A DNA stretch of 64,000 nucleotides from Chromatiales bacterium (lineage in GTDB: Bacteria; Pseudomonadota; Gammaproteobacteria; Chromatiales; Chromatiaceae). Positions 47,665 through 51,452 of this stretch are shown here, in pieces. The DNA lies in NCBI GenBank assembly GCA_030145425.1, contig JAQYVO010000083.1, forward strand, positions 1 to 64,000, in the 5' to 3' direction. Both the position numbers and the translations under genes were made by a program. The stretch's first letter is position 1, and each line of letters begins with the position of its first letter. The notes under the pieces are model-generated. The model was not told the DNA's origin. It was given only the letters and a program-made list of their open reading frames with translations, and did not search any database.

Positions 47665-48315
47665 ATGGGCAAGGAATACGATCGCATCTCCTCCGATATC
47701 CAATGTCTCAATGTCAGGAAGCTGCCGGCAACCCTGATATCGAACAGAGGCGCACACTGTATAGTGTGGCAGACCGGGGGATATAAGAAGCACAGGAAGT
47801 TTAATCTGGACTTTGTCATCAAGCGGCACAGGCTCAGCTGCACTGACAGGGAGGTGCAGATTTACCAACGCGACTACCTGAGGCTGAAGCAAAGTCTGCA
47901 GGACATCATTCCCTCTGCGATCTTTGTCAGAACCCGGGTGGACGGGGAGCCGAATCTGATGGTGCTGGCTCGCACCTATATACCCTGGTTTAATATCGCC
48001 AACCCCTCAAATGAGGAAGAGGCGCTGCCCCTGCTGGGTAAGCTGAAAAAAGCGCGCACCCAGCTGGAGAGGTTTGTCTCAGTAGCCAGGGAGTGGCGGG
48101 ACCGGGAGAGCAAGGTCATAGATCTGTTCGGGATCGACAACCTGGTGTTGGACAAGAACCATCAGATTCGTTACCTGGACAGCTTCGGTGTCTTCTTTCA
48201 CGAGGACGTACTTCACCTCATCGATGGCGTGGACCCCGAACTTGAAGAGAAGATAGACCTGTCCCTGCAGCGTATGGAGTACCTGAAATACTTGCTGAAA
48301 AAGAGCCGTCCCTGA
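47665..48315 (+). CDS. protein kinase-like hypothetical protein
   Basis: A 216-residue soluble protein that I do not recognise as a named family. Parts recall a small or degenerate protein-kinase fold: FNLDFVIKRH could supply the ATP lysine, LMVLARTYIPWFNI the hinge, and GIDNLVLDKNHQIRYLDSFG a catalytic loop followed by a DFG-like DSFG. No membrane helix is seen. It follows a palindromic repeat and converges with the DoxX gene of the bufferin-type operon. Function and substrate are unknown. Confidence 0.65.
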   Translation: MGKEYDRISSDIQCLNVRKLPATLISNRGAHCIVWQTGGYKKHRKFNLDFVIKRHRLSCTDREVQIYQRDYLRLKQSLQDIIPSAIFVRTRVDGEPNLMVLARTYIPWFNIANPSNEEEALPLLGKLKKARTQLERFVSVAREWRDRESKVIDLFGIDNLVLDKNHQIRYLDSFGVFFHEDVLHLIDGVDPELEEKIDLSLQRMEYLKYLLKKSRP

Positions 48316-48331
48316 TACCGACCGCGTTCGC

Positions 48332-48781
48332 TCAGGCGGCGCCGCCCCTGCGCAGCAAGCGATCGATGGATACCGTGCCGCCCCCGTACTTGATCAGGTA
48401 GAGCAGTGCCACGGCCCACCACATATGAACGCTCCAGGCATCCGGATAGACAAAGATCTGAATCACAGCGGTCATGATCAGCAGGGATAAAGCCGCAAAA
48501 CGGGTGAACAGGCCCAGTACCAGGAGAATGGGAAAGAAGTGCTCGGCATAGGTGGCCATGTGCGCAGCTATCTGCGGCGGGATCACCGGCAGGGCGTACT
48601 CGTGTTCGAACAGGAAGAATGTGGACTGGGAAATGTCCAGAAACCCGCTGACCTTGGAGCGGCCCGAAGACCAGAAGGTATAGGCCACCGACCCGCGCGC
48701 CAGTAATGCGATCAGCCAACCCGGTGTCAGTCTTGCGATGCCGTCGAAGATACGTTGCAGGCCGCTGATGATGGCGTTCAT
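48332..48781 (-). CDS. DoxX family membrane protein (BufD-like)
   Basis: A 149-residue four-helix inner-membrane protein of the DoxX family, with [39 protein letters not shown] and [17 protein letters not shown]. It is the last gene of a minus-strand set of DUF2282 peptide, DUF692 and DUF2063 genes, a frequent arrangement for bufferin-type systems in which a DoxX gene is common. An AAGGA site lies upstream of the ATG. The molecular role is not established; redox or membrane association is possible. Confidence 0.88.
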
Positions 48782-48807
48782 TGTGAGTTCTTCCTTATGT
48801 ACGGGGT

Positions 48808-49581
48808 TTAACAGGCTCTAAGAGCGCAGAATGTGCCGTCAAAAAGATGGTGCGAGAAAAAAACGGCCAAGTCGAAGGCGCTGTCTGTCTGCAGCGCCAG
48901 ATTGAAGGCATCCTCTATGCTATCTCCCGTCTGCAGTCTTTGTAGAAACACGAAGGTGCCCTCGCCGACTTCCCTGGTTTCAACCTCCATGCCCGGCCGC
49001 ACGATTACAATGCGGGAGGGGCCGGAGTCCAGAGAGATCGTCTCTTCAGAGCCGTCTTCCTGGTTGGCCGCCCAGATGCTGAACAGGGGGTAATCGGAGT
49101 CGATGCAGTGCATGGAGGGATGAGGCTCCAGGCCGAACCGGGTAAATGTCTCTGCGGATATCGAGGCGACTTCATCCCGGGCCAGCACCTTTGCATCAGA
49201 CGCGTGATACGCACAGGTCCATCCAAACTCCAGCCTTGCCACATCGGGGAGATAGGGTAGCCGGGACAGCTCCGGTATGGATTCCAGGAAGCTGGGAAAG
49301 CGGTCGCCGTATAACAGCAGCGTGCGCGTTGCCGGCGGGTGTTTTCGTACGTAGAGATTCGCCAGCGACCTGAAGGCCTCATCTCCGATCAGGCGCTTAA
49401 CGGTCGGGTACATATCTGCCAGCGCATCGCCGTTGAGTACGATGAAGTTGTTTCGGTAGACGTTGAACCGCTCCAGGGCCGTGCCGTCATCGAGCAGTTC
49501 ATCCATCAGATCCCGGGGCGGCGGATCAGAGGTACGCAGAAGGTCGCAAAACGCCTGCTGGAGGTTAGACAGCGACTTCAT
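48808..49581 (-). CDS. bufC: DUF2063 protein, MNIO partner (BufC/HvfC-like)
   Basis: A 257-residue DUF2063 protein, the usual partner of DUF692 enzymes. The conserved start [15 protein letters not shown] leads to a helical domain with [20 protein letters not shown] and [15 protein letters not shown], followed by a beta-rich C-terminal half. In characterised MNIO systems such partners bind the precursor peptide and present it to the enzyme. The gene overlaps the end of the DUF692 gene by 17 bases, so translation is probably coupled. Confidence 0.9.
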
Positions 49582-50449
49582 ACTTGCTGCAGGCGGCGGT
49601 CAGCACCTGATCCGCGATTATCGATTCCCCGAGCAACTCGGCAAACTCGGGTATATTGCTGTCTCGCTCGATCAATGTGGGAACCGGTCCCAGGGTTTCG
49701 ATGCAGTTTTTATACAGTTTCCATACCTCATCGCACACCGCAGAGCCGTGGTCGTCAAGACGCAGGGTTCCCCTGCTCATAGCCTGAACCGTATGCCCGG
49801 CGAGGTGAATCTCGCCTACCAGATTTGCCGGAATAGCCGACAGGTAAGCCTCGATATCCCAATCGTGATTGCAGCAGGAGACATAAACGTTGTTGATATC
49901 CAGCAGCAGTCCGGCGCCGCTGCGTCTGGCCGTCTCCACCAGAAATGCCTGTTCTGTCATTTCACTGTCCCTGAACTGGAGGTAGGTTGACGGGTTCTCT
50001 ATGAGGATTTTTCTCTGCAGGGCCTCCTGAACCTGGTCGACATGCTCCACTACCTTGTTCAGCGCGTCTTCCGTGTAGCGCAAAGGCAGCAGATCGTGGG
50101 TATACCAATCGCGGCCGTGGCTCCATGACAGGTGCTCCGAAACGATGCCCGGCTCGAAACGGTCGACCAGTCCTTTCAGGGCTCCAAGGTGATCCCTGTC
50201 CAGGGGCAGATGGCTGCCCAGTGACGTACCCACGCTGTGCAGGGAGATGGGATAGTCACGGCGTATACGCTCCAGGTAACCCAATGGTGGTCCACCCGCA
50301 CCCATATAGTTCTCCGGGTGAACCTCGAACCATCCGATACTCGGCCTCTGTTCTATGACCGGCTGGTAGTGTTGCGCCTTTAAACTGACCCCGGCCCGCA
50401 TCGGGACCGGGGCCGCTGCTCGGCAATGAGATGCACTCGGTTCATCCAT
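49565..50449 (-). CDS. bufB: DUF692 MNIO enzyme (BufB/HvfB-like)
   Basis: A multinuclear non-heme iron-dependent oxidative enzyme (MNIO, DUF692), 294 residues. Members install oxazolone-thioamide or thiooxazole groups on cysteines of ribosomal peptides. Likely metal ligands are seen in WFEVHPENYM, ISLHSVGTSLG, VSEHLSWSH, ENPSTYLQF, LDINNVYV and GEIHLAGH. The ATG at 50449 was chosen because it follows the peptide gene by 16 bases; an earlier in-frame start at 50488 would overlap it. The close link with a DUF2282 peptide gene points to a bufferin-type copper-binding product. Confidence 0.93.
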   Translation of the reverse strand: MDEPSASHCRAAAPVPMRAGVSLKAQHYQPVIEQRPSIGWFEVHPENYMGAGGPPLGYLERIRRDYPISLHSVGTSLGSHLPLDRDHLGALKGLVDRFEPGIVSEHLSWSHGRDWYTHDLLPLRYTEDALNKVVEHVDQVQEALQRKILIENPSTYLQFRDSEMTEQAFLVETARRSGAGLLLDINNVYVSCCNHDWDIEAYLSAIPANLVGEIHLAGHTVQAMSRGTLRLDDHGSAVCDEVWKLYKNCIETLGPVPTLIERDSNIPEFAELLGESIIADQVLTAACSKYEVAV

Positions 50450-50465
50450 TGAGTCAGCGCAAAGC

Positions 50466-50732
50466 CTATTTGGCGGCCAGGCTTCCACCTACGATCTTCT
50501 CGCAGGTGCCCTTGACTACCAGCATCCAGGCATTGCCCTGGCCGTCGGCGGTGGAAGACCCGGCACAGCTGGTGCCCGGGCCGGCCTTACAGTCGTTCTT
50601 TCCGGCTTGGGCGACGCCGTAGCATTTCTCGGTACTCCCGCTGCCTGCCGCCTGGACACCCGTCAACGGGGCAAGAGCAAGAGCGGCGGTGATGGCGCTC
50701 GCAACGATCGCTTTGGTCGCAGTATTATTCAT
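50466..50732 (-). CDS. bufA1: DUF2282 bufferin-type precursor peptide
   Basis: An 88-residue DUF2282 protein with a signal peptide (about residues 1-28, ending GVQA). Four cysteines remain in the mature part: Cys37, Cys48, Cys56 and Cys77, in KCYG, DCKAG, SCAG and TCEK. Proteins of this family are precursors modified on cysteine by the DUF692 enzyme encoded next and are reported to chelate copper in the periplasm. The ATG at 50732 follows GGAGGAG and starts the signal peptide; an earlier in-frame ATG at 50795 is unlikely. A CysGly motif is repeated around the cysteines. Which cysteines are modified here is unknown. Confidence 0.92.
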
Positions 50733-50930
50733 GTATAACTCCTCCAGCAGAATCTGATTCGCAATTAAAACAAGTATTTTTGCCTTTTGGCACATACATA
50801 GACCCGGGCAGGCAGCCGATTCATTTCAGGTCATAGAAAAAAATTATGTGCGTGCATTCTTGTGTTGGAGATAGGAGAAACAGGTAGGGCGCGGTAAGTG
50901 AGACGAGCCACATCTGTCAGGACAGGTGCG

Positions 50931-51323
50931 TTATAAGGTATCCATTACGCGCTTCAATCGTGTCTTGACCCTACCGACCATGTCCGTGATGACCGGATTG
51001 TCCACCATGCCCAGGGCTACCTCTGGATCCATGAAATCCACTCTCACGCTGCCGTCCTCCAGTTGTCGAACCAGAGCGTTGCAGGGCAGCAGCAGTCCCA
51101 CGGTAGGCTCGGCGCTTATCGCCTGGTTTGCCAGTAGCGGGTTGCAGGCGCCGAGGATTCGGTAGGGCAGTATCTCCTTGCCCAGTTTTTTCTTGAAGGT
51201 TGCCTCAACGTCGATATCGCTGAGTATACCGAAGCCTTCCTTCTGCAATTCCCTTGTCACCAGATCGATGGCACCCTCGAAATCCGTGTCGACGACCTTT
51301 CCGAATCCGTACTTGATATCCAT
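50931..51323 (-). CDS. DUF302 domain protein
   Basis: A 130-residue DUF302 protein, with MDIKYGFGKVVDTDFEGAID and RILGACNPLLANQAI, and a conserved cysteine pair in ACNP and LLPCNALV. DUF302 proteins are found in sulfur-metabolising and many other bacteria; their function is not known. The ATG at 51323 follows GAGG and leads to the family start. The bufferin-type operon begins 198 bases further along the same strand, so a common control is possible but not shown. Confidence 0.82.
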   Translation of the reverse strand: MDIKYGFGKVVDTDFEGAIDLVTRELQKEGFGILSDIDVEATFKKKLGKEILPYRILGACNPLLANQAISAEPTVGLLLPCNALVRQLEDGSVRVDFMDPEVALGMVDNPVITDMVGRVKTRLKRVMDTL

Positions 51324-51452
51324 TGCTTTAACCTCGTTTTTTCTCATTTGTTTTCAGTTGGATTCTGTGAAGATTCCCTGAGTTTTGTCAGGTTTCCAGA
51401 CCTACGAGATGCGTGAATCATTATCCGGATCATGGGAAATATGCAACGTACA

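Follow-up and report, generated by a model that had tools for sequence, protein, structure and literature searches.

The four genes at 48332-50732 of the window (the whole 64,000-nucleotide stretch of DNA analysed here) very probably constitute a Buf1-type (DUF2282) bufferin operon, of the kind formerly called 'gig', that makes an exported, modified copper-binding peptide; we put the probability of this reading at about 0.92. Gene content and order, conserved residues, the fold of the partner protein and purifying selection were all observed directly in this work. The operon is an ordinary, intact, textbook Buf1 case, and the family has already been described in thousands of bacteria. The locus adds one operon of presumed copper-buffering function, from an uncultured gammaproteobacterium whose relatives include clam symbionts and Sedimenticola. 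It is useful chiefly as a reference case, annotated correctly and with definite masses predicted for the mature peptide.

Organisation of the operon

The features of the locus are as follows.

50466..50732, minus strand: bufA, Buf1/DUF2282 bufferin precursor, 88 aa (PF10048, E 8e-25)
49565..50449, minus strand: bufB, MNIO/DUF692 bufferin maturase, 294 aa (PF05114 MbnB_TglH_ChrH, E 4e-101)
48808..49581, minus strand: bufC, DUF2063 + RRE-type partner, PME type 1, 257 aa (PF09836, E 3e-22)
48332..48781, minus strand: doxX, DoxX-family membrane protein, 149 aa (PF07681, E 2.7e-17, 63.6 bits)
50733..50828, minus strand: bufA upstream region, tentatively a possible ECF-type promoter/operator

The sequence-only reading placed the four genes, all on the minus strand, with single-base accuracy, and the 16-base gap and 17-base overlap that it gave also hold. 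The gap separates bufA from bufB (50450-50465, with the ATG at 50449 as the bufB start), and the overlap is that of bufB with bufC (49565-49581). Pfam agrees for all four genes, the DUF2282, MbnB_TglH_ChrH, DUF2063 and DoxX matches each exceeding the curated cut-off, and the PF07681 match places a DoxX gene within the core BGC. A strong Shine-Dalgarno sequence, GGAGGAG, lies upstream of bufA, and all four reading frames are intact. Compared with the same-genus locus L004, in which the doxX counterpart is 93% identical, dN/dS is 0.14 for bufA, 0.14 for bufB, 0.23 for bufC and 0.13 for doxX; purifying selection thus acts on all four genes. At 79 of the 80 related loci the gene immediately ahead of the MNIO gene is a DUF2282 gene, and together with the purifying selection this places the operon far beyond chance. 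DUF2063 and then DoxX follow in most of the related loci that are not ended by a contig edge.

The flanking genes were also inspected. A DUF302 gene upstream (window 50931-51347, minus strand) was considered as operon-linked and rejected, as among the retrieved loci it has the same position only in L004; it is probably a mere neighbour. Downstream, at window 47665-48315 (plus strand) and convergent with the operon, lies a gene for a 216-aa protein that has no Pfam or NCBIfam match at 0.001 and that resembles a YrbL-type kinase-like protein.

Precursor, maturase and partner protein

The first gene had been read as encoding a signal-bearing DUF2282 precursor with four cysteines in its mature part, and both points are borne out. 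BufA matches PF10048 with 87 bits against a cut-off of 22.4, and its predicted Sec-like signal peptide (residues 1-28), read from the sequence and the alignment, has a short start with lysine, a hydrophobic stretch and the site VQA^A, with cleavage before AGS. The mature part has exactly four cysteines, C37, C48, C56 and C77, of which the last three are invariant in 84 of 84 precursor homologues and C37 is kept in 83; the core common to the 84 precursors is EKCYG(V/I)..GxNDC..GTSCAGTST..C. The EGKCG repeat of the captophorin HvfA/oxazolin type is absent from the precursor, and the NCBI model for BufA2 gives 22.2 bits against a 60-bit cut-off, in line with four cysteines rather than the six or twelve of Buf2. 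The structure model of the bufferin is of low confidence (pLDDT 66), such that pairing of the outer cysteines cannot be confirmed from it. The single departure at C37 is found in the bufferin of a Ctena orbiculata symbiont (L007:5699-5953), where the first cysteine is replaced by tyrosine (EKYYG), while the close relative L009 keeps it; an outer disulphide cannot form in the L007 peptide and is hence not universal. Three further loci (L017, L019 and L076) carry several DUF2282 precursors before one MNIO gene, the extra copies having a shorter spacing of the central cysteines.

Directly after the precursor gene comes an MNIO gene of the bufferin-maturase type. BufB passes the NCBIfam model NF050167 MNIO_BufB ('MNIO family bufferin maturase') with 374.9 bits, above the cut-off of 310, and it matches 3BWW (E 1.5e-35), TglH and MbnB. 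Residues H71, H106, E151, D184, N187, H215, D232, H234, E261 and D263 are at least 97% conserved among 81 sequences, and most of them align with 3BWW and TglH. In the MNIO family such residues serve as metal ligands. Judged by position in the sequence, BufB D263-S264 would correspond to FonB D249-F250; in FonB, D249 is the proposed base, and enzymes of the DUF2282 type show no conservation at the site that follows it (PMC12668002).

The AlphaFold model of BufC (pLDDT 93.5) has as its best PDB matches TglI (8hi7_A, E 3e-6) and NGO1945 (3dee, E 1e-4), both MNIO partner proteins. A profile sequence search of BufC against the PDB gave no match, and these two relatives emerged from the fold comparison alone. 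The NCBIfam models for HvfC and HvfX (NF050144, on doxX) were matched below cut-off. A score above the cut-off for NF050167, with BufA2, HvfC and HvfX all below theirs, is what is expected of a Buf1 operon and not of a Buf2 or Hvf system.

Proposed maturation and relation to known systems

Bufferins are Sec-exported RiPPs in which thiooxazoles derived from cysteines sequester periplasmic copper; in Buf1 of Caulobacter the two central cysteines become thiooxazoles, the outer two form a disulphide, and the product chelates copper (PMC12452194). Gadgil and co-workers found 5-thiooxazole in three related MNIO-PME1 products, with four H lost per site, and thereby revised oxazolin; this heterocycle is shared among MNIO-PME1 products (PMC12668002). 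The closest likeness to the present operon is the Buf1 BGC of Caulobacter vibrioides (bufABC + doxX), which has the same order of a Sec-signal four-Cys precursor, an MNIO, a DUF2063-RRE partner and DoxX. The gig operons of Cupriavidus metallidurans and Legionella pneumophila, named for gold induction, are bufferin BGCs under another name (PMC12452194). The EGKCG captophorins (fontiphorin, oxazolin HvfA and gonophorin) appear alike in having an MNIO with a PME1 partner and in belonging to the 5-thiooxazole copper-binding class, but their precursor is built of the EGKCG repeat whereas ours is of the DUF2282 type. Buf2 bufferins share the architecture of enzyme and partner but have six or twelve cysteines.

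By analogy with these systems we infer the modification and its sites, the export route, and copper binding and protection. BufA would be made with its Sec signal peptide and, in the cytoplasm, would be presented by BufC, through its DUF2063 and RRE-type domains, to the iron enzyme BufB. BufB would then oxidise C48 (NDC) and C56 (TSC) to 5-thiooxazoles, each in a four-electron oxidation with loss of 4 H. The modified peptide would be exported by Sec and trimmed after VQA, and C37 and C77 would form a disulphide. If cleavage does fall after VQA, the monoisotopic masses calculated for residues 29-88 are 5733.70 Da without modification, 5725.63 Da with both thiooxazoles and 5723.62 Da when the outer disulphide is added. 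The mature BufA peptide, of about 60 residues, may bind periplasmic Cu(I)/Cu(II) and so buffer excess copper, with DoxX as a putative accessory membrane protein. Sequence and literature thus support the earlier assignment of the locus to a bufferin that is exported, modified and chelates copper, the copper function in this organism being assigned by homology. The accompanying statement that the exact modification is unknown does not stand for the family, as the Caulobacter Buf1 peptide carries thiooxazoles; for the peptide studied here it does, strictly taken.

Upstream region and the probable metal

Upstream of bufA the element TGAAATGA-N15-GGGTCT, at 50828-50800, is followed just downstream by the inverted repeat TGCCAAAAGGCA, and both are common to the closest relatives. 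Five upstream regions (those of L004, L010, L011, L015 and the window) have in common TGAAATRA, with 18-19 bases from TGAAAT to GTC, and a TGCC-N3/5-GGCA inverted repeat after the GTC. The stricter form of the promoter pattern has one other exact match in the genome, and a reversed-pattern control has 0; the gene that follows this other match presumably encodes a DsrC/TusE-like protein. A sigma-70 promoter scan around the operon performed no better than shuffles. We tentatively regard the element as a candidate ECF-type promoter with an operator-like repeat; its conservation could stem in part from the kinship between the sequences compared, and we treat it as a lead only.

In some Buf1 BGCs a sigma factor/NrsF gene is adjacent, whereas no gene for a sigma factor, an anti-sigma factor/NrsF or a copper regulator adjoins the operon studied here, and neither CueR nor NrsF has a match over the cut-off in the genome. 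The sole NrsF match, on another contig (G000:C264:2821-3207, minus strand), was set aside as part of a sigma/anti-sigma pair; it scores 23 bits, below the cut-off of 26.8, has two stop codons, and is possibly a relic or a chance match. It is rather unlikely that an unlinked sigma factor of the ECF type drives the operon in this lineage through the conserved TGAAAT-N18/19-GTC and TGCC..GGCA, as part of an undescribed regulon possibly concerned with sulfur metabolism. If so, the copper peptide would be tied to that regulon, in place of the linked sigma factor/NrsF pair of some Buf1 clusters.

The one exact promoter match elsewhere, before the presumed DsrC/TusE-like gene, also bears on the metal, as do the clam symbionts and Sedimenticola among the relatives, which are sulfur oxidisers. 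Both would suit a reading in which operon and chemistry are the same but the main ligand or inducer is another soft metal, or oxidant or sulfur stress, and not copper. It was through gold that the gig operons first came to light, the one in Legionella responds to gold as well as to copper (PMC5413113), and MerC fusions of bufferins exist (PMC12452194). Nevertheless, copper is the metal bound by those products of the DUF2282 and EGKCG types that have been characterised (PMC12452194, PMC12668002), and no gene for another metal adjoins the operon; we regard this reading as unlikely and copper as the more probable ligand.

The predicted heterocycle

We consider it highly improbable that the MNIO makes a different heterocycle, such as an oxazolone-thioamide, or modifies all four cysteines, even though the chemistry of MNIOs is varied (PMC12452194, Table 1) and there is little conservation around the DUF2282 cysteines and at the matching enzyme site (PMC12668002). 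BufB is an equivalog match, and the 5-thiooxazoles of Gadgil et al. (PMC12668002) argue for the same product here; action on all four cysteines is at odds with the disulphide reported for the outer cysteines of Buf1 (PMC12452194).

Genome setting and distribution

The assembly (3.79 Mb in 338 contigs) is fragmented and 91% complete, and its one DUF2282 and one DUF2063 gene both sit in the buf operon. Among the relatives found, the MAG 'Gammaproteobacteria bacterium Ww462' is closest, with 84% identity in BufB; Candidatus Thiodiazotropha, further symbionts of clams and Sedimenticola come next, at 65-69%. Presence is patchy: DUF2282 occurs in 9 of the 38 genomes searched and is absent from one of the two other genomes of the genus (96% complete). 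Such patchiness would suit a decaying or unmodified cluster, in which BufA is secreted as a cysteine protein without modification and the enzyme genes survive as relics, but this is scarcely credible given intact frames, retained key residues, dN/dS of 0.13-0.23 for each gene and four genes that are nearly always found together.

A second MNIO gene

The same genome has a second MNIO gene (G000:C215:59960-60799, minus strand; also L084:7961-9049), with a PF05114 match of 262 bits. It is flanked by a family-2 glycosyltransferase (GT2) gene (L084:7116-7952) and a thioredoxin-TPR gene (L084:9129-9989), with carAB nearby. The locus lacks both a Cys-rich precursor and a DUF2063 partner, and is not a bufferin arrangement. 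The main text of the MNIO landscape paper mentions neither glycosyltransferase nor thioredoxin. This locus is more curious than the buf operon itself. Six further genomes of the family (L097-L101 and L103) also carry the MNIO-GT2 pair, at about 57-71% identity, and in four of the six a thioredoxin gene adjoins it.
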